The notes below the pieces were generated by a model. That model did no database searches. It was not told the origin of the DNA and saw nothing but the letters and a program-made list of their open reading frames with translations. A DNA stretch of 64,000 nucleotides from Bathymodiolus brooksi (Eukaryota; Mollusca; Bivalvia; Mytilida; Modiolidae): assembly GCA_963680875.1 (NCBI GenBank), contig OY804579.1, forward strand, positions 51,846,036 through 51,910,035, in the 5' to 3' direction. The translations under genes and the position numbers were made by a program. Within the stretch, counting starts at the first letter, position 1. Each line of letters opens with the position of its first letter. Shown here piece by piece: positions 1-61,932 of this stretch.

Positions 1-96
1 TTACAAAAATTTATGCGACCTGCCATTACACGAATTTACGCGACCTGACATTACACAAATTTACGCAACCTGACTTTACGCGAATTTATGGGACCT

Positions 97-18500: not shown

Positions 18501-19130
18501 CTAACATTACACGAATTTACGGGACCTGACAATACATGAATTTACGCGACCTGTCATTACACGAATTTATGCAACCTGACATTACGCGAATTTATGGGAC
18601 CTGACATTACACGAATTTACATCACCTGACATTACACGAATTCACGTGACCTGACATTACACGAATTTACGTGACCTGACATTACACGAATTTATGCGAC
18701 CTGACATTACACGAATTTACTCTGCCTGACTTTACACAAATTTACGCGACCTGATATTACACGAATTTACGCGACCTGACATTACACGAATTTATGCGAC
18801 CTGCCATTACACGAATTTACGCGACCTGACATTACACAAATTTACGCAACCTGACTTTACACGAATTTATGGGACCTGACTTTACGTGAATTTAAGCGAC
18901 CTGACATTACACGAATTTATGCGACCTGACATTACATGAATTTACTTGACCTGACATTACACGAATTTACGCGACCTGACATTACACGAATTTACGTGAC
19001 CTGACATTACACAAATTTACGCGACCTGACATTTCACAAATTTATGCGACCTGACATTACACGAATTTACATGACCTGACTTTATACAAATTTACATGAC
19101 CTGACATTACAAAAATTTATGCGACCTGAC
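9573..19130. repeat. Satellite super-repeat, copy 2 (about 9.5 kb)
   Basis: Second copy of the higher-order unit. It begins at the recurrence of the module-start variants and ends where the array first meets non-satellite sequence. It follows copy 1 variant by variant, including rare variants and short units. It differs by scattered substitutions and by replacement of one block (about 14,870-15,960 against 5,390-6,100). The near-identity implies a recent segmental duplication within the array, or possibly an assembly duplication. Confidence 0.8.
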
Positions 19131-19133
19131 TTT

Positions 19134-19263
19134 AGCCAATGGAACAGGTCTCTTATGGACCACTCATCATGAGCATAAACCTCATAATGAGCTGTTACAT
19201 TAGGTTCTTTAACGTGCAGACCTCTCAACACGGGACCTCGGTTTAACGTCTCATCCGAAGGAC
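19134..19263. repeat. Conserved dispersed element, copy 1, inside the satellite
   Basis: A 130-bp non-satellite segment with the landmarks TATGGACCACTCATCATGAG, GTTCTTTAACGTGC, ACGGGACCTCGG and TCATCCGAAGGAC. Satellite units flank it on both sides. The same segment recurs at 19,433 and 21,491. The GGGACCTCGG...CATCCGAAGGAC core resembles a motif I associate with dispersed repeats of many invertebrate genomes; that recollection is not checked here. Confidence 0.75.
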
Positions 19264-26758: not shown

Positions 26759-26817
26759 CTGAAAGCAACGCAAAGACATTGTGCAATAAAAATGAACTAG
26801 GTTGCTCAGGAAGATGG

Positions 26818-26966
26818 TTTATGGTGTTTATCGCCCCTTTCAACAATATTTCAGTTATATCGTGGCAGTCAGTTTTATTGGTGGAGAAAACTGGAGTACC
26901 GGAGAAAACCATCGAACTGTCGCAAGTCATTGACAAACTTTATCATATAATGTTGCATCGAGTACA
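26818..26966 (-). mobile_element. SINE copy (body only)
   Basis: Reverse-orientation copy of the window's commonest SINE: TTCAACAATATTTCAG, GGCAGTCAGTTTTATTGGTG, GAGAAAACCATCG, TATCATATAATGTTG. The tRNA-like head is missing. The same body recurs at 26,985, 36,348, 44,305, 61,325, 61,692 and 62,440. Confidence 0.8.
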
Positions 26967-26979
26967 CCTAAGGAAGATT

Positions 26980-33338: not shown

Positions 33339-33698
33339 TTTTTTTTAAATTAAAGTTTTGATATGTATATAATTTCAATAAATTAGAATGCAAAATTAGA
33401 GAAAATATATACTGAAGGGAAAAAGAAACGCAGGGTAACATAATATGCTCCTATATTTTGACTGCGTGGCGTAAAATTACAAAAACTGAGCAGACCAGTC
33501 AGTGTGAACTAAAATCGGTGTCTAATGTTACTCAACTGTGAAAGGTATCATGTGACATAGAGAAAGTGATAAAAAGCAAATAACACGTGCAGAATAATGA
33601 TAACAAGTTCGTCAACACATCGTGTCATACCACTTTATACTCTTGAGGTATACACATCGCTTTCCACTACTTAAAGTTAATTTGAATCTCTTGTAATC

Positions 33699-34055
33699 AT
33701 GCCACGGCTGACGGAAGTTCAGAGGGGTCAGGCTATTGCATTGCTAATGCAAGGTCAAAGGCAACAAGTTGCTTTGCAATTTGGTGTGAATGTTTCCTCC
33801 ATAGAGCGTCTTGTCCGTCGTCTGAGAGATACTGGAAGGATCGTCCGCGACGGGGACGTCAGCGCATAACGACGCCACGTCAAGACAGGGCTATTTATCT
33901 TGCCCACCTGTGTAATCGCCACGTTACTGCCACTGAAACCGCTTTAACTACGGTAGGCAATCATAATCACCACATTCACCCAAAAACTGTGAGAAAACGA
34001 TTGCGCGAGTTTGGTCTGCGAGCTCGTCGTCCTTACATTGATTTTCCTCTCACTC
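33699..34055 (+). pseudogene. Tc1-like transposase, N-terminal half (HTH region)
   Basis: ATG at 33,699 begins MPRLTEVQRGQAIALLMQG, a helix-turn-helix paired-like DNA-binding start. About 50 codons later (near 33,845) a frameshift leads to a local TAA. The other frame continues with RPRRGRQRITTPRQDRA (GRPR-type linker), then HPKTVRKRLREFGLRA and RRPYIDFPLT. It ends at 34,055 where the 8.5-kb insertion begins. In family terms this is the DNA-binding domain and linker; the catalytic half is at 42,576. Confidence 0.88.
34049..34055 (+). repeat. Target-site duplication CTCACTC, left copy
   Basis: CTCACTC lies at the end of the left Tc1 half and again at 42,569-42,575 at the start of the right half. 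Removing one copy plus the intervening DNA restores an uninterrupted transposase reading frame (PLT|RARHA). Extending one base gives TCTCACTC and GCTCACTC, an 8-bp duplication with one mismatch. Confidence 0.85.
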
Positions 34056-34460
34056 ATACATGTGAACCTTCCGGCGGGAGCATTTTTCTCCCGATTTTGA
34101 GGGTCCCTTCCGTCCCTCCTGTCAACTTTCAAAATCTTCCGCCCGTGAAAAAAATCAAGTACAAAAAAATCTTGACCTACATTTTGCGATCAATATTTCT
34201 GGAATTCCCCATTTGGAACTTCCGTGCTGAAGAAAAACGCCGAGAGATACGAATGGTAAAGGTGAATATCATATTTAATGATATCCGGTTATTGATCTGT
34301 TTGACACCTTTACAGGTAAATTGGGTCATGGTGATTAATTAAGGTGTTGATGATTATACAACAATTATCCACTGATTGACAGTTAATTGGGGATAAGGAA
34401 GTGTGTTTGTGGCACACGCTTAGATGATTAGAAGTGTGATAGCGGCAATTCAAAATAGTT

Positions 34461-34583
34461 ATAGAGGGAGGTAAAAAATTCTTTACATGTTTTGTCGACT
34501 TACAAAAGGCATTTGATACTGTTAATCATGAGGGATTATTGTATAAACTGAGAAAAATAGGAATCAGTGATTCATTTTATAAT
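34461..34583 (+). pseudogene. LINE reverse transcriptase fragment, 5' part (motif A)
   Basis: Open frame of 41 codons with FFTCFVDLQKAFDTVNHEGL, reverse transcriptase motif A, ending KLRKIGISDSFYN. The frame resumes, with no missing or repeated codon that I can see, at 37,971-37,974 (NLIKNMYNNTELCVK). It is therefore the 5'-truncated start of one LINE copy split by insertion Y. Confidence 0.85.
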
Positions 34584-34671
34584 AATACAAGTTTGACTAC
34601 TTGTGTACAGCTTGTACACTATTTTGTACATATGTACTCCTGTATAACTTGGATACCATTTTTGTACATAC

Positions 34672-34756
34672 TTGCATATAACCTGTACTGCATGTTTTCT
34701 TTTTTCTCTGACTTTTTTGGCTGTATACTGCCTCCAATAACTCTGAATGGTGATAG
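34672..34756 (-). pseudogene. Class I myosin neck exon C (IQ motif), captured fragment
   Basis: Minus-strand exon of 85 bp between acceptor TTTTTATTACAG and donor GTATGT. Joined to exon B it reads TITIQSYWRQYTAKK, then VREKRKHAVQVIC. This is an IQ calmodulin-binding motif that aligns without gaps, as I recall the family, to the second IQ of MYO1C. Exon phase is 2 nt in, 2 nt out, consistent with exon B. The next exon (third IQ and TH1 tail) is not in the window: only 88 bp of intron remain before the insertion boundary. Frame and splice sites are intact, so degradation is slight. Confidence 0.85.
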
Positions 34757-35080
34757 CTGTAATAAAAACATAGATATCAAATTTAGTGTACATGTGCACA
34801 ACACGTTTCTGGAATAATTTAAAAGTCTTTGGGTGGAATAGAACCAAAGTGGCTACTGTAGAGTAGCAAGATGAAGAAGTTTGACACTTAAATCTTGAAA
34901 GATCTCGGACATACGGCCAAAAAACTTTTGAACATGAGTTTGTTCTCGTACTCGAAAAGCAACCAATTAGAAAACAGTATCAAATGAATACTTTGTACTT
35001 ATTGAAAAATTTTGAAGTACGAAAACCTAAATCATACTCAAAAGTTTTATGAATGCAAGCACTGATACATGTATATCAAG

Positions 35081-35180
35081 GTCCTATGGTACCGTGATAG
35101 TTAAATTAAAAAAATGGCAGTGAAATTGGTCAAAATAGCATGTGAATATGCAGTATATATAGGATTCACGGTACCATAGT
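35081..35180. repeat. Short inverted repeat (GGTACCGTGA ... TTCACGGTACC)
   Basis: CCTATGGTACCGTGA near 35,083 and TTCACGGTACCATAG near 35,164 form inverted arms around ~65 bp of intron between exons B and C. Possible small MITE; no ORF. Confidence 0.55.
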
Positions 35181-35366
35181 GTCAGACTATTTATAATATA
35201 GTCAATTCATCAAAAATTGACAACAGACAAAAAAATCCACTTTTAAAAATTGATTTATATACAGCATTTTCCAAACAAACAGTTAAAATTTATATAAAAT
35301 AAACAAAAATTTTACATAGTCTTTGGTCAGGTAAGCCATCAATATGATAGGTCTTTCTTTACTTAC

Positions 35367-35435
35367 TTGAAATCTTAAGAGTCTTAAATTTCTTCTTTTG
35401 TGCAAATCCTCTGTACTGAGCCTGTATTTGTGTGG
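35367..35435 (-). pseudogene. Class I myosin neck exon B (first IQ motif), captured fragment
   Basis: Minus-strand exon of 69 bp: acceptor TTTTACTTTCACAG, donor GTAAGT (perfect). Its first two bases complete a Ser codon begun by exon A; it then encodes TQIQAQYRGFAQKKKFKTLK, a canonical IQ motif (IQxxxRGxxxxK). Its last base plus CT of exon C makes Thr, keeping the frame. It binds calmodulin or light chains in intact class I myosins (established knowledge). A 62-bp duplication lies just upstream in the intron. Confidence 0.88.
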
Positions 35436-35455
35436 CTGTGAAAGTAAAACACTTA

Positions 35456-35582
35456 TGATTAATAAAGAAGTAAAAGGAATCATTATGTTAGGCCATCAAT
35501 ACAAATGTTTGGTTTGATTATGATTAATAAAGAAGTAAAAGGAATCATTATGTTAGGCCATCAATACAAATGTTTGGTTTGC
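35456..35582. repeat. 62-64-bp tandem duplication
   Basis: The segment GATTAATAAAGAAGTAAAAG ... ATACAAATGTTTGGTTTG is present twice in a row with no visible difference, immediately upstream (minus-strand sense) of exon B. Recent local duplication. Confidence 0.9.
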
Positions 35583-35947
35583 AACCCACCAACACTGCCA
35601 TTACCTACTGCAAACAAATTGTATCAGTAATTCAAAAGAATTTAGTTTTTAGCATTAAATCAAGTTTTTTCTCAGTTATTTGAAAGAAAATAATAATCAG
35701 CCTATCTACCTACCAACTTGGAAAAAATGTATGTTGGATTACAACACATATGTATTTGATATTGATGGCCTCATACAATTAAATTTTTTCTATTTCAGTT
35801 CAGGCTTTCTGGAATTTTTTTATTTCTAAGATTATGTTTTTTTTTCTAATATTTGATATGTTCATGTTCAATCTGATCAAAATCACTTCTCTCACCTGCT
35901 CTCCTTACGGATATGTCATGGCATGTGAGATCTGAGGAAACTCCATC

Positions 35948-36136
35948 ACAGATCACATGTGAGTGACCCTATGTTACCATCCAATGAAAATGGTGATTAG
36001 GAGACTATGAAAGTGCTACAAATTAAAATTAAACTGCTTTGGTTACTACGAGCAATCAGATTGGTAAAAAATGTCATATCACATGTTTATCATATCATTT
36101 AATATTCATCACATGGGGTCACTTGCATGTGACCTG
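35948..36136. repeat. Palindromic element (CACATGTGAGTGACC / GGTCACTTGCATGTGA)
   Basis: CAGATCACATGTGAGTGACC at 35,948 and GGGTCACTTGCATGTGACC ending near 36,135 are inverted. The interior has no ORF. Probable MITE in the intron between exons A and B. Confidence 0.55.
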
Positions 36137-36347
36137 TAATAAGAGTTTCTTCACATTTCCCACAATGCAACATATCAGTAAAGGGGAACAAATGAGAGAT
36201 ATGATTTTAATTAGATTTTTTCATGTCTACTTCCAATTAGACAATAAGTTGACTAATTAAAGTTAATTCATTACCAAAGAAATATTGAAATTCATGATTA
36301 GTTTGACCTACATTCTGTTTATGTTACATTGTTTATTCATTTGGGAG

Positions 36348-36605
36348 CCATCATGGTCGTGATCGTATGGTAGTTGGATTTATAACTAACTATGCAATCA
36401 GTACCTATCACCACTAACATTGTGAGTTCGAATCCCACTCAGATGAGGTGTACTCCATACAACATTATGTGATAAAGTTTGTCAGTGACTTGTGACAGGT
36501 CAGTGGTTTTCTCTAGGTACTCCGGTTTCGTCCACCAATAAAACTGACCGCCACGATACAACTGAAATATTGTTGAAAGTTGCATTAAATACCATAAACC
36601 TAAAT
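36348..36605 (+). mobile_element. SINE, full-length, plus orientation
   Basis: Head GGTCGTGATCGTATGGTAG, B box GTGAGTTCGAATCCCAC, body GTGATAAAGTTTGTCAGTG, GTGGTTTTCTCTAGGTACTC, CCAATAAAACTGACCGCCAC and CTGAAATATTGTTGAAAG, tail near TACCATAAACC. Same family as 61,692-61,932; lies within the intron between exons A and B. Confidence 0.88.
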
Positions 36606-36813
36606 CAAACCAAATTCATATATTCACTAGAAATGAGAAGCTGATTGTCAAAAATTTGAAATTTTGACTAAAATTTCATATCCCATGTTAAATAAACACT
36701 CAATTTTATGTGTTGGTTATTATACATGAAAGCCAAGAACTTCTTACGTAAAAAGTAATAGTGAATTTCAAAACTATGAAATAAGTTTTACTGGCTCTAC
36801 ATTAAAATCTTAC

Positions 36814-36890
36814 ATAATTCATTTTTCCTCCGTTGGAAGGCATCTTCTGTTGCAAATAACACTCTGGGAAATCTTATGAATAGCTTTGTC
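36814..36890 (-). pseudogene. Class I myosin exon A (end of motor domain), captured fragment
   Basis: Minus-strand exon of 77 bp: acceptor TTTTTGTTTTACAG, donor GTAAGA. It encodes TKLFIRFPRVLFATEDA, then FQRRKNEL. This is the converter-to-neck junction of class I myosins; FIRFP.xLFATED is, to my memory, diagnostic of MYO1C/MYO1H-type proteins. The first G completes an Arg codon (GR-TK in the family) and the last T is completed by exon B. Preceding motor exons (P-loop, switch regions) were looked for on the minus strand to the right and not found. The frame is intact, so this is either a recent capture or, less likely, part of a living gene. Confidence 0.88.
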
Positions 36891-36899
36891 CTGTAAAAC

Positions 36900-37970
36900 A
36901 AAAATAAGTCTAAATATGTTTATAATTTACATCAGAGTGTGGCATTGGCTATGGTAAACAGTAATCTAGAAAATCTATCAGAGAAATCTTGTGGAGCTAT
37001 AAATACAGCATGCTCACAGGTTTTTCATCTAGGGGTACATGTACCCTTTTATCTTCATTTTTGAGGGTACATCCAAATTTTTGGGGGGTACAATGTACCC
37101 TCTAACTCTTCATTTAGGGGTACAAAGAAAATGAACTGCATTTTTCTCATTTCACATGTCCAGTTTTTGCATATGTTGTTTTTTTTAAGCATATGAAATA
37201 AAATTTCAATTTGTTGTTGTTTTGAAAGTTTTTTGGCCGTTTAGACTTTAGGTTTTTTTTGCCGGAGTTGGCACTGGTTCACTGACATTAGTTACATTAT
37301 TGTTAGGATCGGCACTGTCATCGTCGCTGTTACTGTCATGTTTTTTTTAACAATTTCGTTTCTATTTTTGGCGAAGAAATCATTCAAGGATCGCTGCATA
37401 GTATAATACCAAGTAGGTCAGTAGGCTGATAGATAGAACGTCAAGGTCGTGCACCATGCTGTTTTTTGTAAATATTACGGGTTTTAACAGTAACAGTTCT
37501 TCTGATTGGACAATTAAAAAATAAGGAGCCAATAGAATTGGGCGATCTATAAATCATATCATCTCACTTAAAATATGCAAGGAATGCTCTGATTAGATAA
37601 TATTGCCGAAATTAACTAATCAGAACAACTCTATTATACGTACTTTGAAGTGAATTGTAAACAAAAGGCAATTTTTATACAGTGCTCGCAACGGGTTCTT
37701 TACGTGCACGCACGTAGGGTTCTTTCAATTATACGTGCATGATTTTTATTCTACGTGAAACACGTACTGCAGTACGTGAATGGGCATGCTGAAATAAACA
37801 AAAGCTGTTTGTTTTAATTGAAAATACAATACTTGCTATGCCATTTGACTGATACTGATACATACTGAAGTTACACATCCCCAGTATACATCTCATGTAC
37901 GTCTCCTAAAATGTTTGACAATATAGAAATTGAAGTGGAGATGATAGTTATTGAATTATTTTCTTAATTA
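36900..37970. other. Non-coding right part of insertion Y
   Basis: AT-rich sequence with the GGGTAC and ACGTGCACG palindromic patches noted under Y. No exon or ORF supported. Confidence 0.5.
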
Positions 37971-39461
37971 AATTTAATAAAGAATATGTATAATAATACA
38001 GAACTCTGTGTAAAGACAGACAACGATACTATGACAGAAAACTTCACCTCAAACATAGGTGTCCGGCAAGTAGATAATCTGAACCCTACTTTATTTAAGA
38101 TTTTTATAAATGATCTTATTGACTCCTGAACCCTACTTTAATTAAGATTTTTATAAATGATCTTATTGACTCCTTTGACGAGTCGTGCAAACCCGCTATT
38201 TTAAATACTTTAAAATTGAACTGCTTATTATATGCAGATGATCTAGTAATAATGTCAGAAACAGCTGACGGTTTGCAGATGTGTATTGATAAATTGTATA
38301 ATTACTGCACAAAATGGGGTCTCCAAATAAATATGAAAAAGACCAAATCAGTTGTATTTAAAATATTACAGGAAAATTCCACGATAAAATATTTAATGTA
38401 AATAATGTACCTATTGAAAGAGCAAAAGGGTATAAATATTTGGGAGTATATCTAAGATCAAGTGGAAGCTCTGCAGAAGCTAAAGAAGATTTGTATAAGA
38501 GGGGATTGAAAGCATTGTTTAAATCTAAAAAGAGTTTTAATTTATATAAACCGAAAATAAAAACACTTTTACACATAATTGACCACACTGTAAAACCAGT
38601 GCTATTATATGGGAGTGAAGTATGGGGAACATCAATGGTCAATAAAATAATAAAGAAGAGTGTTTTCTGTTTAATTTGAGTAAAAACATGAAACAAGAAA
38701 ATGTACATATTAAATTTTGCAAATTTTCTCTAGGTGTAGGCAAGAGAACAACAAATATAGCTGTTTTAAGGGAGCTGGGACGATATCCATTATTACTTGA
38801 AGTAATTTAAAATATATTCAGGTATTTTAAATATTTATTAAAATCTGAAGATGTTCTTTTATCCGAGGCCCTAAAGGTCTCTAAATCATTAAAATCATTG
38901 AACATAAATAGCTGGTATGGTAGTATAGAAAGCTTGATGCAGTACATTAATATAGATGTTAAAAAAGTTAAAAAATCTTTAATTTACAGCAAATTAAAAC
39001 CAAAATATAATTTTGTATGGAGATCTGAAATTTATGATGACAGAAATAATAAACAGGGGGGTAATAAATTAAGAACTTACAGACTATTTAAAGATAATAT
39101 TTCCTTAGAAAAATATTTACTAATACTAAATGAGGATGAAAGGAGGGTACTTACTAAGTTCAGAGTAAGTGCTCATAATCTAGAAATCGAAAAAGGAAGA
39201 TATATAGGAGTAAAAACAGAAGATAGAATTTGTAAATTATGTAACACTGGGGTTGAAGATGAAACCCATTTTCTTCTTCAGTGTCCTGTTTTAGAAAACA
39301 AGAGAACCCAAATTATTAATAATATTAAAAATATGAATACAAATTTCAATAATCTGCCAAATAAATCAAAATTAATATGGTTCATGTCATCAGAAGATAA
39401 TTTTATAATTAAGAACACTAGTTCACTACTATGTTCTTTATTTAAAAAAAAAGAGATTTAG
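37971..39461 (+). pseudogene. LINE reverse transcriptase, 3' part with C-terminal zinc knuckle
   Basis: Continues the frame cut at 34,583: NLIKNMYNNTELCVK, then GVRQVDNLNPTLFKIFINDL (motif B region, with V where G is usual). A 47-bp tandem duplication (38,079-38,173) disrupts the frame. Then come LLYADDLVIMSE (motif C, YADD), KGYKYLGVYLRSSGS, KPVLLYGSEVWG and, in the final 187-codon ORF (38,898-39,461), CKLCNTGVEDETHFLLQCP, a CCHC-type knuckle usual at the C-terminus of this LINE group. Several stops and frameshifts make it inactive. It belongs to the APE-type LINEs and is distinct from the copy at 50,391. Confidence 0.9.
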
Positions 39462-39469
39462 TTCTCAAA

Positions 39470-40000
39470 GGAAATTAAGATAGATTAAAAAATACAAAAT
39501 AAAAATAATAATATTTAATAATAAATAAAATATTAATAATATTAATGAAATATTGTTCATAAAAATGCTATATGTATACTATAACTATACTGAATATGAG
39601 TCACTGGTGGTTCTCCCATACTAATATTAATAAAATATTACAGTTATACATGGTGTGCAAGTAAATATCTGGAAATTATGCAAGATCACCATGCAGGGTC
39701 AGATTTTATTATTGTATTTATTCATTTGTTATGTTGTCCTTCTTTCTTTCTTTGTTGTAAAACCAATCAAACCAATCAATATGAAATCAAATGTATGTAA
39801 TTCACTTAATTGTTCTGCTCAATATATTGACAATAAAAGATTTGTATCGTATAAACCGTTGTGCAAACACGAGTCGGACAACCTTTGATGCCGAGGAAAA
39901 CTTCTTATTTCGATCAAACGTGCAATGAATTCATCTCGGATTGAGTTGTTATGGCTTGTTTGGGACCAAAGCCGATCAAAGTATTATTTAAGGACCAAGT
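39470..40000. other. LINE 3' region and flank, no gene
   Basis: AT-rich 3' tail with AATATTAATAAAATATTA patches and AATAAAAG near 39,833. The end of the LINE copy is not sharply defined. Confidence 0.5.
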
Positions 40001-40496
40001 TCCAGGACATCTTCGCTAGCCAAGGGTTACGATCCGATCTACTCATCTTCACCCTTGGCATTGTTAAGACGGATTTTCGTAATTCCCGCACACTGCCACC
40101 TGCTGGATTCTGACAGTTACGCCCCTTGTAATGATGTCATTTTCAGCCAATTGACGCAAGGCTTTCATTTCCTTTCGTTTGAATGCCCTGAAAATTGACT
40201 CGAGATTATAATATGGCTGATTTTCAAGCGAAGATTTGTGAAAAATTTAATATAAAATCATTGACAGACAATCAGAGCAAATCTATAACGGCTATTATAG
40301 ATGGAAAAGATGTCTTTGTTGGCACGAAGACGGGAAGTGTAAAGCACGTTCTGATTGGTTGCAGCTACCACTAGCTGCCTTACATATAAACCGTCACCGT
40401 GTGACCTCGAAAATCCGTCTAACGATGCCAAGGGTGAAGATGAGTAGAGTGGATCGTAACCCTTGGCTAGCGAAGATGGTTCCAGGATGGAATTGA
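40001..40496. mobile_element. Fold-back module with ~80-bp inverted arms
   Basis: Left arm 40,001-40,079 (GCTAGCCAAGGGTTACGATC, CATCTTCACCCTTGGCATTG, AAGACGGATTTTCG) and right arm 40,408-40,496 are inverted copies at roughly 90%. The ~330-bp interior contains the truncated helicase start. Could be a foldback transposon or an inverted duplication. Confidence 0.8.
40213..40374 (+). pseudogene. Truncated 5' end of a RecQ-like helicase gene
   Basis: ATG at 40,213 opens 53 codons. Residues 1-42 read as a DExH/RecQ-type helicase start: EKFNIKSLTDNQSKSITAII (Q-motif-like region), then DGKDVFVGTKTGS, the beginning of Walker A (usually GTGKS or GSGKS). Straight after TGS the sequence diverges (VKHVLIGC) to a stop, so the gene is cut inside motif I. 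The cut lies in the interior of the fold-back module. RecQ-like copies of this kind are, from memory, multiplied in molluscs and cnidarians. No activity possible. Confidence 0.7.
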
Positions 40497-40508
40497 TAAA
40501 CCACAAAA

Positions 40509-40752
40509 ATGCCGAAACGTATGCTATCACCCAACGCACCAGCAGCAAAGAAGACCAAGTACTTTGCCAAGTTCCAGAATGCCTGGAAGTCCGAATTCAA
40601 GTGATGCCAGGCTAGCAGTAAAGGTCCAGTCTTCTCAGTGTTAAGATAAACAATACAACAGAGTGTCATCAGTACAAACCTGATACAGATGTGGTGAAAG
40701 CAGCAAAGAAGGCTTGTACCTCCTACTTGAACCAGTGTGCCAGTGCCAAGTA
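40509..40752 (+). pseudogene. Broken N-terminus of a zinc-finger/hAT-type protein
   Basis: ATG at 40,509 gives MPKRMLSPNAPAAKKTKYFA, then KFQNAWKSEFK and TGA at 40,602. In frame after the stop comes CQASSKGPVFSV, so TGA probably replaced the TGG of the usual KFxxxWxxEFxW pattern that precedes a TTF/BED-like zinc finger. A second frame ends at TAG 40,750 with DVVKAAKKACTSYLNQCASA. Looks like the 5' piece of a transposase-related gene; decayed. Confidence 0.5.
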
Positions 40753-41063
40753 GACTGATGCTTAATGACTTTTATATATGTTCAATTTTGTGACTTCTCT
40801 AAGTTTACTTTCTTTCACTTACTGTGATTATATCTGTGACTTTTTAAGGGTAAATTCTGTGACTACATGTGATGAATAGTGACTTTTTAATTTTAGTGCT
40901 CTATGACTTTATTGTTCAGAACATTCTGTCTTCATTGTTATTGCTTTGTTATAACCTTATGATTATGAATGATCATGAATAAATTCTAAATACAGTTTTT
41001 ATCCTTCATTCATCATATGAAACACTACTTAAGACAGAAATGTAAACAAATACGGGGCCGTAG

Positions 41064-42369
41064 CTATAATCCGACAGTCGGATAGTCCGACGGTCCGATA
41101 GTCCGACGGTCCGATAGTCCGACAGTCCGATAGTCCGACAAATGCTTTAAACTGATGAATGTTTTGAAAAATAATTTGGCCAAAAATGATATATTCGTAA
41201 TTTCAGGATATGGGTCATTCATTTTTATATACGCCCGTCAACATACGGGCTTATTATGGCATACCGTTGTACGTCCGTCCGTCCACGCCTCGTACGATAA
41301 CATCTCTCACTTGTTCCCCCTTTTACTGATAGGTCACGTCTTGACATACATTGTATTGATAAAAGAGGGCGGAAGTGAGAGGTGTGATTTTATGGTATAT
41401 ACAATTAATTGGCTTAAAAAATGCAGCATATTAATTACTGTTCTCACACTGAGCAACTGACCTTCAATTGTCACAAAAGAGGGGGGGGGGGGCGTATCAT
41501 GGAACAGTTGTTTATTTTGTCATATTCCGATGCTGTTTCTTTCCGTGGTATAAGGGGTCACTTAGGGACAATTCCTTCAATCGTAACTTTTTATATATGC
41601 GCTTGTCGTAGAAGGGTCACCCGTCGGAATCCCAGGGAATAAAAATAGGACCAACTTGTCGTCGGAAGAGACAGAAAAACATGTTCCAGTGTTAAATCGT
41701 TGCCGATGTTGACCCATCCCAGAGTCCCCTCTTTCTGATTTTTTGCTTACAAACTTTTCTCATCCTGAATATGACTGAAATATTGCTTGCTGGACCATAA
41801 GCAATCAATCAATCAATCAATTTCGCACACATTATTGTATCCAGCTATATTGATGTGTCGACATTGCTTTTTAACATGATAAATATTCCATGATAAAGGG
41901 TGGGGGACACTGGTACGCTCTCCTTTTGGCTTTTCCTTTTTTTTTGTATTCATTTATTTCATCTTTCTTTTTAATCGTGACTTTTCTTGGCTGGAATCGG
42001 CTACACGCTACTTGAATAAAGCCTGAAGTAGTCGCTACTAAAAAATATACGGGATACTTACACTACCGGTTCATCACGACTGGATCCAGGTTTTTATGGA
42101 GTCTGCGTTGTTCATATATGTGTTTTTTTAGCTTTTTGTGTGGCCCTGCCAATTGTTTGTCCGTCTATGATATCGTGTTTCCGATGTTCTGGATCTTTCT
42201 TTGGTGAGTAAACGGTTCTGTTTCTGGCCCCATATTACACATGTTATAGTGTTAACTTTCAAAGAAATATAGCATTTGTCGGACTATCGGACTGTCAGAC
42301 TATCGGACTGTCAGACTATCGGACCGTCAGACTATCGGACTGTCGGACTATCGGACTGTCGGATTATAG
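41064..42369. mobile_element. 1.3-kb element with GTCCGAC-repeat inverted termini
   Basis: Left end 41,064-41,145 is CTATAATCCGACAGTCGG followed by 16-bp subrepeats (AGTCCGACGGTCCGAT) ending GACAAATGC. Right end 42,272-42,369 is the inverse (GCATTTGTCGGACTATCGG ... GTCGGATTATAG). The ends therefore carry tandem subrepeats inside inverted repeats. The interior has no transposase, so it is non-autonomous. The target duplication is unclear. Confidence 0.85.
41228..41330 (+). repeat. Hairpin + GTCCGTCC leader repeat
   Basis: ACGCCCGTCAACATACGGGC forms a small hairpin followed by TTATTATGGCATACCGTTG and TACGTCCGTCCGTCC. The same architecture is at 31,097 and 59,888. Dispersed-repeat leader; no gene. 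Confidence 0.55.
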
Positions 42370-42568
42370 GTCGGACCTCAAACAATACATATTGAAATGA
42401 AATGGGATGCAGTTGGCTCAATACTGAAACAAGCAAAAGGAAAACATCAATAAACAATAAAAACATGCATCAAATACGTTGATAAAAAATCTCCAGTTAT
42501 GAGACCAAATCTCCAGCCAAAAATTTGCAAATCTCCAGTTATAGCATAGCAACTCTATCACATGTATG

Positions 42569-42575
42569 CTCACTC
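42569..42575 (+). repeat. Target-site duplication CTCACTC, right copy
   Basis: Pairs with 34,049-34,055 and marks the right edge of insertion X. The Tc1 transposase frame restarts directly from it. Confidence 0.85.
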
Positions 42576-43080
42576 GTGCACGTCACGCACGTCGTATGGC
42601 TTGGTTGGCGGCACATGGTCCCAGACAATTTCCAATGAGGCAATGGAGACGGGTCTTTTTCACAGATGAGTCGCGGTTCACTCTTTTTCGTCCGGACGGT
42701 CAACGTCGTGGGGAACGCTTTGCCGACGCTTGCGTTCTTGAGAGGGATAGGTTTGGGGGTGGCTCGGTTATGGTCTGGGGAGGGATATCTCACTGGTTAA
42801 AGTCGCTGTTGATTGTGATAACCGGTAATTTAACAGGTGTAAGATATAGGGATGAAATCCTCCGGCCGGTTGCAGTTCCATTTGTGCAACAGCATCACCT
42901 AATTTTCCAGCAGGATAATGCCCGGCCCCATGTAGCCAGAGTGTCAAGATTTTCTCGCCAATCATAACATTAACCCACTCGATTGGCCTCCATACAGTCC
43001 AGATTTGTCCCCAATGGAACATCTGTGGGACAAAATGGACAGGAGAGTAAGGGGGCGTCGGAATCTAATGAAATTTTAAA
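42576..43080 (+). pseudogene. Tc1-like transposase, catalytic half (DD34E)
   Basis: Frame begins RARHARRMAWLAAHGPRQF. The catalytic residues are present: D in FFTDESRF (42,665), D in FQQDNARPH (42,914) and E in SPMEHLWDKM (43,017), with 34-codon spacing between the second D and E, the Tc1 signature. A one-base frameshift near 42,945 (after HVAR) separates the last part (DFLANHNINPLDWPPYSPDL). The C-terminus stops early at about 43,080. Inactive by insertion X and two frameshifts. Confidence 0.92.
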
Positions 43081-43199
43081 AACTTGTTGATTAAATTTGT
43101 GTTTTAATCCTTATATATTAATATTGAAAAAAAAACATTCGAATAAATAATATCAAATCACCTAATATATTGACCCTGCGTTTCTTTTTCCTACAGTAT

Positions 43200-44300
43200 A
43201 TAATATTGATAAGATGTCAGAAAATATGATGCATTTTTAGATAAATTATTAAGAATACATATATATTCAATGTTTACATTTAGGGGCGTAAACATGTATC
43301 ACAATGGCACTTTGTTATGATTCCTTTTCAAAATTGATCTGCCTCCATGTTTAATCACTCAAACACACCTTCAACTAATTCAATTTCAAGGTCAACAAAC
43401 AATCATGTGATTATGAATATCACAGTCAAGAAAATGTTTAAACCTATTCTTTGGTGTGATTATAGATGTGTTACAAATGTATAATACAAATTCCTACAAT
43501 AGAATTTCTTTTTTTATATGAGAATAAATATTATAGACAGGTATAATCTATTATGTATTATTTATTCCCAAATACTAACATAACTATAATATTATTTCCT
43601 AAATGAACAAATATTATAGGGAACAAATATATGTTGACAGACTCATATAAAGTTGAAGCATTTTCACTTTTTGTTTTACTCATTAATTTGTATTACATAC
43701 ATGACCCCCTTTTTTTTGCATGCAATCTTAGAAACAGCATTAACACACATGCGAAGTGAAAAAGTTAGGACAATACTTACAATTTTTTGTGAAAAGGGCA
43801 ACAGGTCCTCAATAAAATGAAATATATATAAAATATATATTCAAATCAATTAGAAAACTTAAGTAAAATAAGAATCAAGTAAATTATTCTTATTGTAAAT
43901 ATTCACACAAAAATATACTACAATTAGAAAATTAACCTTATGACCAATGGACAAAAGTGAGTAGAAATCAGAGTACTCACATTGGAAAGTTCAAGTCAAT
44001 CAAGTCAGCCATGTAATAAAATTAGAACATCGTTAATCTACATAAAACAAAATGTAAATTATTATTATCATTATTAATTTGTTAAAAATATTAATAATGA
44101 ACTTGTCCACATTCGTAAACAACTAATTATTAGACAAAAACACATTTATTAAAATTAATATATATAAATATCTTTTATTTACTGCCATCTAAATTTTCAC
44201 GATAACTTGTTAAGACTATGGCGTTTTCTTTTAAACATTCAAAATGAAAAGACAGTTTGTTACACTCTCATTCATTATTTAAAACTTTATTGATCACAGA
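43200..44300. other. AT-rich sequence, no gene seen
   Basis: Low-complexity AT-rich DNA right of the Tc1 element, with traces of AATATTAT repeats (43,540-43,625). No ORF or RNA gene supported. Confidence 0.55.
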
Positions 44301-44304
44301 TTTG

Positions 44305-44578
44305 ATTTGATTGATTTATTTTGTTTAACGCCACTTTCAGCAATATGTCAGCTATATCATGGCGACCAGTTTTAGTGGTGGAAGAAGCCGGAGTACCCGG
44401 AGAGAACCACCGAACATGGGCAAGTAACTGGTAAACTTTATCACTTGCGGCTGGGAGCGGAGTGCAGCCTTTTTTGTAATTTACAAAGCCGAGCGCGAAC
44501 CCACGCCGTATTGGTGATAGGCTTATATGAGTTGTTAGGTAATCCTACTACCTAACTCGTTGAGCCACCCGGACCCTA
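44305..44578 (-). mobile_element. SINE, full-length, minus orientation
   Basis: Reading its own strand: GGGTGGCTCAACGAGTTAGG (A box), GCGTGGGTTCGCGCTCGG (B box), body with GGTTCTCTCCGGGTACTCCG and CTGACATATTGCTGAAAG, and an (ATCA)-type tail. Same subfamily as 26,980-27,256: both share a ~50-bp insert containing TTGTAAATTACAAAAAAGG that other copies lack. Confidence 0.88.
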
Positions 44579-46084: not shown

Positions 46085-48646
46085 CAGTGCTCCCGTGGCG
46101 TAGCTGCATTAAAGCAGTGTAAGCAGCTTACAAATACTTTCAAAAAAAATTAGTTTGGGGTTATTTTGTCCAAATCCAGACTGAACTCCCTCATTTGGTT
46201 GTGTTTTAGTTTATATCCACCCCGCTAATTTCCCCCGGAAGTATATCTGGTCAATTCCGACAATTACTTAATTCATAATGATTGCATATTAGTCCAGCGT
46301 TCATTTGCACTGTATTTAATACTAATCTTGAACTTTATATTTACATCTAAATTAATTCAAATCTCAGTAACGCACGTGCTACTTGAAGATCATACAGTCT
46401 TTATACACATCACTTTCCTGAAAGTTCATAGAACTTGATTAATTAGTAAACTACGATTTATAATATGAAGAGAAGTAGTTCATCGGAGGAACAAAGTAGG
46501 GGTCCCGGACAAAGTAAATTGTCACAGTTTTTCTCTGAACGGTAAACAGAGTCAATAAAAAACCTAAGTGTGGAGCTTTCACATGGTTCTGGTACATGTT
46601 TGCCACAAGAAAGCAAAGGTAGTGGTACACTCAGCGGCTCCAAAGCAGAGACAAATGATGATGCAGTCAGTACTTCTAGATCTAAATCAATTCAGCCAAA
46701 TAATTCAGATCTGGCCTTTGACAAGTCAAACGTTGACGACCAACAAAAGTTGTTTTTGCTGAAAAATAAATGGGATATTCCATCGTCGTTTGTTTTTCCT
46801 CTGACAGATATTCGTGGGACCAAAAGGCGCTTTAATCGGTCCTGGCTTGAAAAGTATCAGTGCCTGAGATATTCAGTCAGAAAATGGAGTTTTTTGTTTA
46901 TGTTGTGTTTTGTTCAATAGTTCTGAGCATGCATTTGTCACGTAAGAATTCTGTAAATGACTGGGCAAATTTGGGTACCCTAATAAAGCGCCACTTGGGT
47001 CAACCTGGACACAGCAGGTCTTGAAATGAGTGAAAACTTTATGTCTATCGCGGAGGGCCAAAAGGACGATGTAATGTCAATGTTAAGCAGTGCTTTTCAG
47101 GATAAAATCACAAGAAACAGGTCAATTCTTCACAGTATCCTTAAGACCATTTATCTACTGGTATGTGGAAAACAAAATATTACCTTACGCGGTCACACCG
47201 AAGAGAAAAGCAATTTCATAGCTCTTATTAACTACAGGGCTGAAACTGATCAAATTTTGGCTACTCATTTGCAAAACAGTCCCCCAAATGCAAGGTATCT
47301 ATCACCCACCATACAAAATGAACTGCTTGATATTTGTGGTAGACAGTTACAACAAGTTATTGTTTCAGAGTGTAAGGTTATGATGGGGCTGCAAATATGG
47401 CCGGTAAATTTTCTGGCGTTCGCACACGTATTCAAACCGAAATTCCTGAAGCCTATTATGTCCACCGCTATGCACATTGCCTGAATTTGGGTGTTGTCAA
47501 ATCTTGTCAGCTCCCAATTGTCCGCAATACAATTGATACTGTAAAAGATGTTTTCATATGCCTTTCATTATTCTTCGAAAAGAACAGGTAGGTTTAAAAC
47601 CATGTTACAACAGGCAGATGAAGAGCAATTAGATGCTCTTGATGGACGAAGAAAAATAAAAGATTGGTGCGAGACCCGATGGTCAAGTAGGGCAGACGCA
47701 CTTAACATATTCAAATCTGCGCGTGCATTAATAATTGATGACCTAGGGACTGGTGGTGATCGAAATGCTAAGCAATTAAAACTTGCCCTTCAGGATTTCG
47801 GCTTCATGGTTGCTCTTGTTGCTACTGAATGTGTGCTTCAATACAGTTTGGCATTATCCAACCTTTTACAAAGACCTTCAATTGACTTGGTAGAGGCTGC
47901 ATCTGAGGCTGAAACTGTTAATTCAAGCCTTCGAAAAATTAGACAGGATGACAATGTCTGGCAAGAGTTGTACCAGGACATAACAAATCTTGCCGAAAAG
48001 CAGAATGTATTACCGAGCAAACCGAGGACAGCTGGTAGGCAACAGCACAGAGACAATGTGCCTGCTGATACACCAGAAGAATACTGGCGACGATCAGTAT
48101 ACTATCCGTTGCTCGACCACATTGCCAATGAACTTGAGACAAGACTTGTAGTTCCCAAAGATCGGTTTCTGGTTCAATACCTCATCCCTTCAAAACTTGC
48201 CTCCCTTACACCCGAAAGAGAACTTCAGGTTTTTATGTCATTTGCAGGCGACCTGCCCAATAACAATTTTGCAGTCTATGAAGCAGAAATGGTAATGTGG
48301 AAATGTAAATGGCAAAATGTTACTGAGAAGCCGAGCACACTTATTGACACACTCGAGCATGCTAAACCCGAGTTGTATCCTAACATCCACAGAGCTGTAA
48401 AGGTTCTTTTGACTATGCCTGTAACCTCAGCTCCCGCAGAAAGGTCTTTTAGCGCTCTCAAAAGAATCAAAACGTATCTGCGATCTACGATGGTTGAGGA
48501 TAGACTAATGGTTTGTCCTTAATGCATGTCCATCCAGAGATTCCCCTGAACTTTGACCAGGCTATAAACACTTTTGCAGCAGATGGAAACAGGAGAATCC
48601 AGCTGATGTTTCCGTACTAAACACATATTAACATGCAATGGCCTGG
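46085..48646 (+). mobile_element. hAT transposon remnant (left end and coding part)
   Basis: CAGTGCTCCCGTGGCGTAGC at about 46,085 resembles a hAT terminal repeat (CAGTG...GGCGTAGC). The coding remnant follows, and the sequence is interrupted at 48,647 by the left copy of a 13-bp repeat marking LINE insertion. Its 3' flank should resume after 54,360. A matching right terminus was not found. Confidence 0.55.
46465..48620 (+). pseudogene. hAT transposase (ZMYM/DUF4371-like) with frameshifts
   Basis: ATG at 46,465. The N-terminus is Ser-rich; the run GGTAAACAG near 46,541 holds the first break. Next, NKWDIPSSFVFPLTDIRGTK and RSWLEKYQCLRYSV lead into a TTF-type zinc finger (NGVFCLCCVLFNSSEHAF, reached by frameshift near 46,880). 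The middle (47,026-47,400) holds a DUF4371-like region with ARYLSPTIQNELLDICG, then another shift. A 324-codon frame (47,548-48,522) carries DWCETRWSSRADAL and the hATC dimerisation segment PVTSAPAERSFSALKRIKTY. A last shift at about 48,505 leads to NGLSLMHVHPEIPLN and TAA at 48,618. At least four breaks: inactive. Confidence 0.9.
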
Positions 48647-48975: not shown

Positions 48976-50390
48976 ATTAAATTTTTTAAACATTTTAAAC
49001 TATAACAGTATTCTCACATATGATGGACCATGATTGCAATTATCGGTACTATTCCTCTCACATGACTAAATTAAATTAACTTATTGATATTCTATTTATA
49101 ATTTATTTTGTTTTATAAATATATACATGTATATATAATGTCATAAATCTCATATTTACACTATGATAATTACCTACTGCATGCTAATAAAAAACTTCTA
49201 AAATGAATTAAGTATTTAAATTAAATTGAGAGGTAATAAATCTAGCAACATCGTACACTGGTAACACTTTTAGATAGCAACTAATTGTATTTAAAAAAAA
49301 TTAGTAGATCTCATATCAGCCAAATTGTCGATAAAATCTAATCAATGTTAACTACTCGAAAACAGCTCATCAAGTGTGTTCAGGATATCGACTATCTGAT
49401 CAATTCCGATTAAAACACCGACTTTTGTGTTTTTCAAATACGGAACATTCGGACTTTTGATTTTTACAACAATTTTTTTTCAGTATTATCCAAATCTTGC
49501 TTTATCAATTTACCTGAATATCAGTATATCTACTTGAATTACTCCTTGAAATAGTTTACTTGATAAATTAGATATATGTATATTCTTACTTACCTACTTC
49601 ATGTATTATATCCAAGTAATTAAATATATGTTCACTGTTATAATCATTTTGTCAACAACACTGTATAGTCGACACGTGGTTTTTATTTATTTACCTTTGT
49701 ACACGTGTTTGCATGTGACCGATTGAAAAGGAGCACTCGATTCCAAACACTAACTTCTAAAATCAATATTACTAGGTTTGTTATTGTTTTGTTTTTGTTG
49801 TTGTTGTTGCTTTTTGTTTTTTTTTAAATAACTTGCTAAAAAACTAAAGACGGTTGTCTTAAATATAAATTATTGCTCCTACATAAAAATGATAATAATA
49901 ATAAATGAACAAAAAAAAAAACAAAAAAAAAATGTGTAATTCCAAACACATAACTAATTGCGTACCACGTTTCCATGTTACCAAATCATCAATCACTATT
50001 GATAAACAAATCACCATAACCATATTTGTTCTGCTTTTAATGGAAATTGTTATGAATAATGTTGATCATGTTTTTTGTTTGTTTGTTTTTTTTTTTTCAT
50101 TTCTTTTTTTCTTTCAATTTTTCAATACCCCCCAATTTTTTTTTTTTTTTTTTATATGTTAGCTATATTGTACAAAACCCTTACCATATCAATGATACAG
50201 CTTGAATTAGCTGGTGTTTTTCTATTGTCACAATCCATGTATTTCTGTTTCATGTATGTACCTTACTTACTTTTTAATTATGCATTGTATATATTTGTTC
50301 ATATTTTCACTGGAGTTGAGATGCTATGTTTATTTGTTTATCAGTTGTTTATTGACCTATCTTGTGTTTTCATATGTAATTTAGATATAT
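48976..50390. other. AT-rich, probable LINE 3' UTR plus 5' region of the next LINE
   Basis: No ORF1-like protein is seen here. Contains (TATA)n near 49,120, T-rich runs at 50,090-50,157 and low-complexity ORFs that are not called. The 5' end of the downstream LINE is not recognisable. Confidence 0.5.
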
Positions 50391-50396
50391 TTGACA

Positions 50397-53300
50397 ATGG
50401 ATAATGACTTACAGTCATACCGCTCTTCGATAGGTCATTTTAACTTCAATACGCATTCTGGGTTTTTCAAAAGACATTTTTTTAGATCAAATAATCATTT
50501 AGTGTTATATATATTATTAATGTTAATAATTAGAATATGTTTTCAAAGATTTGTTAATTTTTGTCATTCAATTTATCTGGAACTTCTATTACAGAATCCA
50601 GTTTCAACATTTATAATTTTATTGCTGATACTGCTTAGTAATGATGTTGAGCTAAACCCAGGCCCTACAAAGGAAGGTGAACTCTCAATTTTTCATTTAA
50701 ACACTAGAAGTATGCGTCATAAATTAGATTACATAGAAAGCATTTGTAATGAAGCAGATATTATATGTTTAACAGAAACACATCTTGATCAAAATATAAC
50801 AAATGATGGCATTTTTATAGAGGGATACTGCAAAGATCCGTATAGGAAAGATCGAAATAATTCAGGGGGAGGTGTAATAGTATATTTTAGTAATCATCTA
50901 ATTGTCCAACCCAGAACAGATTTAAATTTTGATAGTGAAGCTATTTGGCTGGAAATTGTTTTTCCTGCATACAAAATGCTCCTTTGTGTTGTATATCGCC
51001 AACCTAATGCGAACTATCCATTCTGGGACAAGTTTCAACAGTCCGTGGAAAACGCCACGAATTACTCGTCAAACGTTGTGATAACGGGAGATTTAAATGT
51101 AGATTTTCTTAGTGAACATTCTCACAAATTATTTGATATTATTAGGTTGAATGATCTGAAAAACATGATTACTGAACCTACCAGAACATGTAACACGCGC
51201 CAATCTTTACTTGACCCTGTTTTAGTATCTGATAATTGTAATGTCCTTGAGTCGTATGTAATTCAAGTAGATAGAAAATATAGTGACCATGAAGCAACAA
51301 TTGTCTACCTAAAAGTCCCTCTTAAATCAATCAATACTTATAAACGATTAGTCTGGGATTATCGAAATGCTGATTTTGAGACCTGTAACGATTGTATATC
51401 CTCCTTAAATTGGAACTCAATTATATCTCCAGAAAATAGTATGGACGAAAACTGTCAAACATTTACAAAAACATTTATTGAAATAATTAAAAATTGTGTG
51501 CCCCAAAAAGAAGTTACAATAAGACTAAAAGATAAAGTTTGGTTCAATTCCGAATTAAGAAGGGAAATAAGAAAACGAGACAGACTTCGAAAACTGGCTC
51601 GTAGATCTAATAGTGATTCCAATATTAATAAATACAAGAAGCAACGAAATCATGTAAATAATTTAAAAAAGCATGCTAAAGAACAATTTTATTTTAATGT
51701 TAATACTATACTAGATGATTTTTCAAGTTCAAATTCAAAATCTTACTGGTCATTGATTAAAAAATTGGTTAAATCGTCTGGTGACATGTCACCAATTAGT
51801 CAATTAAAAAAAGAAAATAATGACCTCATCTCAGATGATTACGAAAAAGCATGTCTTCTAAATAATTATTTCTGTTCTATATCTACATTAAATGACAGTA
51901 ATACATCAAAACCAGACTTTCCTCTCAAAACAAATGCAACACTAGATTTCTTTCAAATTACTCCGAGTAAAGTTCTTGATATTTTACAAATTTTAAAACT
52001 TGGAAAAGCGTCAGGTCTGGATTCCATTAGTCATCAAATGCTTAAGAAAACGTGCAATACTGTTTGTGTTCCCCTCTCTCTCTTGTTTAATTTATCGCTT
52101 TCTAAATCGGAATTTCCAACGCAATGGAAAACCGCATCTGTTATGCCACTCTTCAAAAAGGGAGACAAATCATTAATATCTAACTATAGACCAATATCAT
52201 TACTATCAGCAGTTGGCAAAGTATTCGAAAGAATTGTTTTTAAGGAAGTATTTAATCATTTAATATCAAATAATTTATTGTATAAATTTCAATCAGGTTT
52301 CATCCCAGGTCACTCTACCGTTCACCAGTTAATAGAAATCTATTACAGAATATGTATGTCTCTGGATGATCATTGTATTACTACCCTTATTTTATGTGAT
52401 ATTTCTAAAGCATTTGATCGGGTCTGGCATACAGGGCTTTTACTGAAACTTAAAGCTTACGGGGTAGATGGTAAATTATTTAAATGGTTTGAAAGTTATA
52501 TTTCCTGTAGGAAACAATGTGTATTTATAAACAATTCCAAATCCCCCTTAGTAAATACAAATGCAGGAGTCCCCCAGGCTCAGTGCTTGGTCCGCTACTT
52601 TTCTTATTATATGTTAATGATATTGCAGATAACCTTTTAAGTCTTACTAGACTGTTTGCAGATGATACTTCTCTTTCATATTCTAGTCAAAGTCCATATA
52701 CTATAGAAGATGTAATAAATAGTGATTTGGAATCTATATCTATATGGTCTAAGCAATGGTTAGTAAATTTTAATCCTCAAAAAACTAAAGCAATGGTATT
52801 TTCCAACATTAATCTTCCCAACGATATAGAAATAACATTCCAAGACAAATTAGTAGAATTTGTTACCTGTCACAAACATTTGGGTATTACTTTTGACAGC
52901 AATGGAAAATTTCATACCCATATAGTTAATATTATTAAATCAGCAAGTCAGAGGTTGTGTGCCCTAAGAAAACTTAAATATGCATTAAATAGACATTATC
53001 TTTCTCGTATTTATTTGATCTTTATAAGGCCTATGTTGGAATACGCATGTGAACTTTGGGATGGTTGTAGTCAACAAGACTCTGATAATTTAGAAAAGCT
53101 TCAAATAGAGGCAGGACGAATAGTAACCGGACTGCCTCTATTTGCAAGTCGTCAATCTATCTATTCTGAAACGGGTTGGGAATTACTATCTGATAGGCGA
53201 AGGGTAAGAAGGCTCAGCTTATTTTATTCTATTCACAACAAATCTGCCCCAGACTATCTTTGTGATTTGATGCCCCTTCCGGTTGGTAGTGTTTCCCAGT

Positions 53301-53806
53301 ATAATTTACGAAATAGTAATAATTATGTTTTACCTAATTGTCGATTAGAAATTACCAAAAAGTCCTTTTTCCCCTCTACTACCCGGGACTGGAACAATTT
53401 AAGTCCGGAAATTAGAAATTCTGGTAATATTAACATATTTAAAAGAAAAATTAAAATATTGCTTGAAAAAGTGCCTTTTTATTTCGGTTGGGGTGATAGA
53501 AAACTAAATATTATTCATAGCAGACTTAGAAATATGTGCAGTTCGCTAAATGCAGATTTGCACCTTGTCCATTTAAAACCTAGTCCTGCATGTATCTGTG
53601 GTCATGGTTTTGAAGACTGTATACACTTTTTCCTTGAATGTCCCTTTTACAATGAAAATAGGGCAATCTTGTTTAATAAATTAAAGAATTACGTAGTTAC
53701 AATTGAATTGATATTAGCTGGTGATGAAAATTTGACTCCTAACCAAAACATTGAAATCTTCTCTGTTGTTTATTCTTTTATTAGAAGCACCCAGCGCTTT
53801 AACTAA
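50397..53806 (+). pseudogene. APE-type LINE ORF2 (2A motif, endonuclease, reverse transcriptase), one frameshift
   Basis: First in-frame ATG at 50,397, after a TTG at 50,391 (residues below count from 50,391). A hydrophobic stretch (VSTFIILLLILLSN) runs straight into DVELNPGP at residues 85-92, a 2A/StopGo motif. The AP endonuclease follows: HLNTRS (102-107), LTETH with E129, GDLN (233-236), SDH (298-300). Reverse transcriptase: SNYRPISLLSAVGKVFE, DISKAFDRVW (motif A, D670 at 52,398), AGVPQ then a one-base loss near 52,577 in the PQGS motif. The next frame runs 52,517-53,806 with VLGPLLFLLYVNDI and FADDTSL (52,655). The C-terminus has CICGHGFEDCIHFFLECP. Joined length is about 1,130 residues, CR1/Jockey-like. 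Only one break, so the copy is young. An alternative is a sequencing error at the shift. Confidence 0.93.
50643..50666 (+). other. 2A (StopGo) motif DVELNPGP
   Basis: Encodes DVELNPGP, matching the D(V/I)ExNPGP consensus of 2A peptides, where the ribosome skips the final Gly-Pro bond (established knowledge). Preceded by a hydrophobic run. It lies just before the endonuclease, so skipping would release a ~90-residue leader from the enzyme part. Confidence 0.85.
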
Positions 53807-61107: not shown

Positions 61108-61324
61108 TATAACTTGTTGATATGATACTGGTGCTAAAATAGATAAGTATAATGTACAGTCTAATGTTTAGTATCTTTGTTCAAGCCTGAAGAATTCACA
61201 AAATTGTTTGTGCATGTAAATGGAACCATTTTTTGTGCTGCTGTATGGCAGTCTTGTTTATTTGTTAGGCAACAATTTGTTTCCATTCTGCAAAATTAGG
61301 TTCAAAATCTCAGCTTTTATTATG

Positions 61325-61476
61325 GTTTGGTTTGGTTTATGGTGTTTAACACCACTTTCAACAATATTTCAGTTATATCATGGCTGTCAGTTTTATTGGT
61401 GGAGGAAACCGGAGTATCCAGAGAAAACCACTGACCTGTCGCAAGTCACTGACGAACTTTACCACATATCATGGGG
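61325..61476 (-). mobile_element. SINE copy (body, minus)
   Basis: GGTGTTTAACACCACTTTCA, GGCTGTCAGTTTTATTGGTG, GGAAACCGGAGTATCC and GTCGCAAGTCACTGACGAAC. The head is missing. Confidence 0.85.
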
Positions 61477-61691: not shown

Positions 61692-61932
61692 GGGGGTGTC
61701 ATGGTCGTGATCATATTATACATTTGTAGTTGAATTTACAACTACATGTGCATCAGTGTCTATCACCACTTAAGTTGTGAATTTGAACCCCGCTCATGGT
61801 GGGATGTACTCAATACAACATTATGTGATAAAGCTTGTCAGTAACTTGCGACAGGTTGGTGGTTTTCTATGGGTACTCCGGTCCACAATATAACTGAAAT
61901 ATTGTTGAAAGTGGTGTTAAACACCATATCCC
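61692..61932 (+). mobile_element. SINE, nearly full-length, plus orientation
   Basis: Head GTGTCATGGTCGTGATCATA, B-box-like TTGTGAATTTGAACCCCGC, body TTATGTGATAAAGCTTGTCA and GGTGGTTTTCTATGGGTACT, tail GTGGTGTTAAACACC. A ~15-bp deletion removes the GACCGCCACG part. Confidence 0.85.

Follow-up and report, generated by a model that had tools for sequence, protein, structure and literature searches.

How could three exons of the gene for unconventional myosin-Ic (Myo1c), introns included, come to lie inside one transposable element that is itself enclosed by two others? The question is raised by a 64,000-nucleotide stretch of contig OY804579.1 of the bivalve Bathymodiolus brooksi (the window, meaning that whole stretch), where DNA bearing the exons interrupts a long interspersed nuclear element (LINE). 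We consider it probable that a stretch of host Myo1c was patched into the resident LINE by break repair and is now a decaying fragment.

The exons cover the motor end and the neck of the protein:

36814 to 36890, minus strand: Myo1c exon of 77 bp, motor end, encoding TKLFIRFPRVLFATEDAFQRRKNEL plus the first base of the next codon
35367 to 35435, minus strand: Myo1c exon of 69 bp, first IQ motif
34672 to 34756, minus strand: Myo1c exon of 85 bp, second IQ motif

With the bases of their split codons, exons 36890-36814, 35435-35367 and 34756-34672 translate as (G)TKLFIRFPRVLFATEDAFQRRKNEL(T), (CC)TQIQAQYRGFAQKKKFKTLKIS(A) and (CT)ITIQSYWRQYTAKKVREKRKHAVQVIC(AA), respectively. All are bordered by AG and GT sites and have compatible phases; in the same order, the acceptors end in ttttacag, tttcacag and tattacag and the donors begin with gtaaga, gtaagt and gtatgt. 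An earlier sequence-only reading of this DNA had given these exon coordinates, GT-AG sites and matching phases, and we obtained the same. The joined neck contains two IQ stretches (Pfam, whole-protein E=1.1e-7). Its nearest solved structure is Myo1c (PDB, E=1.2e-16, for a query translation that was one residue off, A for T at position 49), and 21 of 31 candidate proteins matched it at E<=0.1, the best at 6e-35 (again with a query one residue off). The closest relative is the protein P0001 (1027 aa; 93%), followed by Mytilus edulis Myo1c (78%), while limpets, oysters and clams stand behind these two at 56-67%. An independent sign bears on the exon borders: the 69-bp middle exon corresponds to 23 residues that the Mya arenaria proteins P0020 and P0021 lack relative to P0012, indicating that the borders are right. 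Sequence match and codon-consistent borders were thus both found, and the three segments are real Myo1c neck exons.

The DNA around the exons is a nest of mobile elements, in which terminal inverted repeats (TIRs), target duplications and protein matches define the layers:

33406 to 43202, plus strand: Tc1/mariner-type element that encloses the whole nest, with TIRs at 33406-33445 and 43163-43202
34055 to 42568, no strand assigned: element X, an insertion in the Tc1 open reading frame, with an 11-bp perfect TIR (CATACATGTGA / TCACATGTATG) and a 6-bp target duplication
34452 to 34583, plus strand: LINE reverse-transcriptase fragment to the left of the insert, by mapping of LINE relatives
37974 to 39461, plus strand: LINE reverse-transcriptase and C-terminal region, resumed (RVT_1, Pfam, E=1.9e-14)
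34584 to 37970, minus strand: exon-bearing insert of 3387 bp, with limits from LINE relatives
34581 to 34583, plus strand: AAT, left copy of a 3-bp junction repeat, from the sequence and a one-residue overlap in 4/6 mapped LINE relatives
37971 to 37973, plus strand: AAT, right copy of the junction repeat, from the sequence and LINE-relative mapping

The inverted repeats of the Tc1 element are 88% identical with a perfect core of 19 bp. Its transposase is split into halves, one from 33701 to 34054 and the other from 42569 onward, and both match the Tc1 part of P0125 (left E=1e-6, right E=3e-24). In Pfam, the left half resembles HTH_Tnp_Tc3_2 (E=2.8e-7), at 31.2 bits slightly below the cut-off of 31.5, and no transposase family matched the right half. 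A joined query matched the Sleeping Beauty transposase (E=1.4e-7), the similarity lying to the right of the insertion. The left half also has a separate frameshift of its own. Element X, about 8.5 kb long, is flanked by the duplication CTCACT (34049-34054 and 42569-42574), and its removal restores the Tc1 frame (...YIDFPLT-RARHARRMAWL...). The LINE spans about 34452 to 39461 and lacks its 5′ part. Its right portion carries two frameshifts, one stop and a 47-bp tandem duplication (38079-38172, copies 98% alike). No target duplication of the LINE was found, the two stretches searched sharing only two 7-mers, and, from its position, it probably inserted into X. Exons, introns, boundaries and nesting are established, and the layering implies a succession of arrivals: first Tc1, next X, after that probably the LINE, and last the exons.

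The break in the LINE is unusually well bounded. When 119 relatives (from 120 of 125 proteins) were aligned across the break, 110 had no gap over about 17 columns around it; for eight of the others the query row was gapped, and for one the row of the relative. Four of six mapped relatives place 34583 and 37971 on one residue, the doubled AAT. For P0022, residue 220 falls at 34580 and residue 222 at 37974, and the alignment of P0023 continues into the insert, to 34640. Accordingly, no LINE sequence appears to have been lost at the site. The ends 34584 and 37970, as given by the sequence-only reading, are exact if AAT is counted as doubled, with an uncertainty of up to 3 bases. The sequence-only reading had held that the LINE frame resumes beyond the exon segment and that the LINE lies within an insertion inside a Tc1. 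The first is borne out by the break at 34583 and the resumption at 37971-37974, the second by the TIR and 6-bp duplication of X, the inverted repeats of Tc1 and its restored frame. Since both LINE and Tc1 break off and later continue, the exons must have arrived as inserted DNA, introns and all, as that reading had also argued.

The interior of the insert bears on its source. It has no poly(A), and both introns are retained; the intron separating the first exon from the second holds a repeat:

36351 to 36616, no strand assigned: repeat found by comparison within the window, which we label SINE-like (short interspersed nuclear element)

At least four related copies lie elsewhere in the window (26816-26969, 44300-44552, 61323-61468 and 61699-61950), and its core had no relative in viral_contigs. 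Because the intron holds a repeat family of the window, the donor was most likely the host's own genome. Another short repeat is common to 34758-34820, 59026-59080 and 62835-62891; its first copy abuts the acceptor of exon 34756-34672, whose acceptor tract may be repeat-derived. A 65-bp tandem duplication lies in a myosin intron (35453-35581), with copies identical over 64 bp. A coding-looking stretch on the minus strand at about 37399-37136 (MQRSLNDFF...) was considered as a transposase and rejected, none of 13 candidates reaching E<=1.

If the exons belonged to a working gene in place, motor and TH1-tail exons should lie collinear with them on the same strand. We compared 21 full-length Myo1c-type proteins with the whole window by tblastn, keeping the best 70 of 199 rows ordered by E. 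All 21 queries matched exon 36890-36814 (E 5e-10 to 2e-7); for the remaining two exons E ranged from 3e-11 to 0.7, varying by query, and the middle exon was weak with distant queries (E up to 0.7). Within those best 70 rows, the best match outside the three exons had E=0.07 and lay within the LINE itself. A full-length hidden Markov model (HMM) built from these 21 proteins and run against 3251 open segments in six frames recovered the three exons (E=7e-13, 2e-8 and 3e-5), followed by a match at E=3.6. Neither search found a further myosin exon in the window. With the Mytilus query (78%), E is about 2e-6 or lower for each of the three exons; therefore, similarly conserved further exons should show with P0001 or Mytilus. 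The informative non-satellite DNA amounts to about 15 kb on one side of the exons and 26 kb on the other, the shorter figure being due to a 25-bp satellite that occupies bases 1 to about 19600. No Myo1c relative was found in viral_contigs or genome_contigs. These searches agree with the earlier remark that motor and tail exons are missing, and the collinear minus-strand motor or TH1 exons named there as its refutation do not occur within the window.

We infer a lack of function for the fragment from what the exons have kept and lost. The neck differs from P0001 at 5/76 residues, and at none of the five does it match M. edulis against P0001; I52, V64 and C76 are changed where those two proteins agree. 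C76 replaces an Arg that is present in 19/19 relatives keeping all three exons. S26, which arises from T at the last base of exon 36890-36814, stands where the same 19/19 relatives have A or V, with codons that begin with G. Judged from these residues in a small sample, S26 and C76 point to relaxed constraint. The exons had previously been called intact, which is true of their frame and splice sites, but not of these two residues. The LINE, which predates the insert, has four disruptions (counted by eye) in 1617 bp of coding sequence. At the LINE decay rate, the chance that 231 bp would stay unbroken is 0.57 (Poisson) or 0.39 (sliding window). Exon intactness was therefore rejected as a sign of selection: because a stretch of 231 bp would escape disruption by chance in some 40-60% of cases, the open frame is weak evidence of function. 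The insert contains neither the start nor the end of the gene and is probably a dead, unprocessed piece of it in decay, not a gene that works.

The same data allow the routes of arrival to be weighed. Retained introns exclude retrotransposition of mRNA. If instead unspliced Myo1c pre-mRNA had been reverse transcribed by LINE machinery and inserted, as a class 1 templated sequence insertion, the introns and the A/T-rich site would be explained, and according to passages of PMC5110952 such insertions can derive from intronic RNA. The would-be 3′ end of the transcript has no poly(A) or poly(T), however, and the duplication is 3 bp where the class 1 rule given in that source (PMC5110952) is at least 5 bp, making this route highly improbable; with two introns, no poly(A) and a 3-bp repeat, the insert falls outside both processed pseudogenes and class 1 insertions. 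It is unlikely that a non-autonomous transposon, Pack-type or Helitron, with ends at 34584 and 37970 captured and carried the exons. A TIR-bearing element with a gene-like frame (40008-40478) does lie close by in the nest, and a 3-bp duplication such as AAT suits some transposase families. But at 30, 60 and 120 bp the insert ends gave inverted-repeat scores close to the average of 300 shuffles, with no TIR beyond chance; hAT, Tc1 and MULE (Mutator-like element) duplications are not 3 bp long. Helitrons have a 5′ TC, a 3′ hairpin with CTRR and insertion between A and T, and no TC...CTRR ends were seen at the insert, where the ends were inspected by eye only and the hairpin was not computed. The sequence-only reading had spoken of transduplication. 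Its insertion of exon DNA with introns stands, but capture and transport by a transposon claims more than the evidence bears, as the insert has no TIRs beyond shuffles, no Helitron ends by eye and only AAT repeated at the junctions. DNA taken up while a break in a resident transposon was being repaired is a better fit than transduplication proper.

We give almost no credence to the idea that the exons belong to a native working Myo1c gene and that the surrounding transposon pieces were misread. The open frame, canonical splice sites and correct exon order and phase would suit a native gene, but the LINE and the Tc1 are both interrupted and both resume in frame, the decay signs fall on an invariant Arg and on the last base of the first exon, and no further Myo1c exon lies in the non-satellite DNA on either side. 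The idea was rejected for the interrupted-and-resumed LINE and Tc1, together with the lack of other exons in the window. Reads from the Myo1c locus could also have been misjoined into a LINE copy during assembly. LINE copies are natural misjoin points, and according to parts of PMC7653742 the assembly of the Mediterranean mussel genome was hampered by its high heterozygosity and its wealth of mobile elements. Such a chimera is very unlikely, as it would require the LINE to be broken at one codon on both sides, without loss and with a 3-bp repeat. With the RNA and vehicle routes disfavoured, the joining of a genomic piece at a break, or templated copying there, is the most likely remaining route.

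For the break-repair patch, we infer the following course. The donor would be a 3387-bp stretch of host Myo1c with three exons (the last of the motor and the two for the IQ motifs), the two introns between them and some flanking intron sequence, and the recipient a 5′-truncated LINE already resident in a TIR element within Tc1. A break in the LINE would have been repaired with filler from the Myo1c locus, either joined in or used as a template, and the repair would have left AAT on both sides and removed no LINE sequence. A 12-mer, TATAATAATACA, at 34578 has a single further plus-strand occurrence in the window, within the LINE at 37989; this recurrence may be a hint of template switching. Several points weigh against this reading and against decay. 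The AAT at both junctions is compatible alike with junction microhomology and with a 3-bp staggered-cut duplication. An assembly error, though very unlikely, counts among these points; it would need to have struck one LINE codon from either direction. The frames of all three exons are open and their splice sites good. The decay signal comes from very few changes (5/76 residues relative to P0001), and its leave-one-out control is weak, as 4/19 relatives (P0005, P0010, P0018 and P0019, all distant) broke columns kept by the other 18, the numbers of columns being 1, 1, 2 and 4. That element X with its LINE and spliceable neck exons is still mobile, spreading an IQ-motif exon cassette that could be spliced into other genes, is exceedingly improbable.

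Other elements in the window were noted in passing. The element at 40008-40478 (471 bp) has TIRs of about 71 bp, which agree in 68/72 alignment columns. Its 9-bp target duplication, GTTCCAGGA (39999-40007 and 40479-40487), is perfect, and from the duplication length we take it to be MULE-like. Its interior holds a 42-residue frame starting with ATG that has a weak likeness to a helicase start (Pfam DEAD, E=0.02; PDB PRP5, E=0.006), making it a candidate animal Pack-MULE. At 41064-42369, a MITE-like (miniature inverted-repeat transposable element) segment of about 1.3 kb has at its two borders arrays of the 8/16-bp unit TCCGATAGTCCGACAG in inverted orientation. The stretch 50385-53806, with overlapping open frames of 751 and 431 aa in different frames, is LINE-like, judging by its sequence. 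A piece of hAT transposase lies at 47545-48522 (Dimer_Tnp_hAT, Pfam, E=9e-10), and the satellite array at 1-19134 consists of 767 copies of the 25-bp unit TTACACGAATTTACGCGACCTGACA with a strong strand skew. In viral_contigs, the nested LINE had one distant relative, which was not used. Rfam at gathering thresholds gave no match in 20000-64000. In passages of PMC8277862, no Pack-MULE is identified in the animal reference genomes of that study, yet the fly Ssk-FB4 family is termed Pack-MULEs.

Set beside Myo1c itself, the three exons supply the motor end and two IQ motifs, but the window has neither motor core nor TH1 tail, making this a fragment rather than a gene. Among the titles and abstract openings listed in the literature searches, no case of gene-fragment capture came from a mollusc. 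Turmoil-1 of Caenorhabditis elegans, as presented in part of PMC2572040, likewise has host coding sequence within an animal transposon, but carries its gene pieces within its terminal repeats, whereas the myosin insert has no detectable transposon ends. Class 2 templated sequence insertions resemble the insert in being distant genomic patches with no poly(A) and with short microhomology, which the AAT may be; in the portions of PMC5110952 that describe them, however, they are human, have no target duplication and are attributed by preference to an RNA or cDNA patch. The animal Pack-TIRs of Tan et al. 2021 resemble the insert in that host-gene DNA separates the two parts of a TIR transposon, that the transposon has lost little or nothing, that short repeats mark the breakpoints and, as in the ERP44 case, that a coding exon comes with part of its neighbouring introns (sections of PMC8277862). 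In the same sections, gap filling without transposition is given as the origin of most single-copy captures of host DNA by animal TIR elements, with microhomology at one or more breakpoints in 190 cases (67.6%; median 2 bp) and small gaps (median 4.6% of the element). Here too, TIR halves with a target duplication flank the captured DNA (element X, with the Tc1 repeats outside); the insert differs in adjoining a LINE rather than TIR-element sequence directly, the LINE being nested in a TIR element in Tc1, and in its content of three exons with both introns complete. More than one exon, introns included, can thus be built into a transposon already in place at no cost in transposon sequence. Such patching is thought to feed exon shuffling, and its mechanism has already been described for animals. 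The process is a known one, to which this window adds a new and unusually well-bounded example, in a mollusc.

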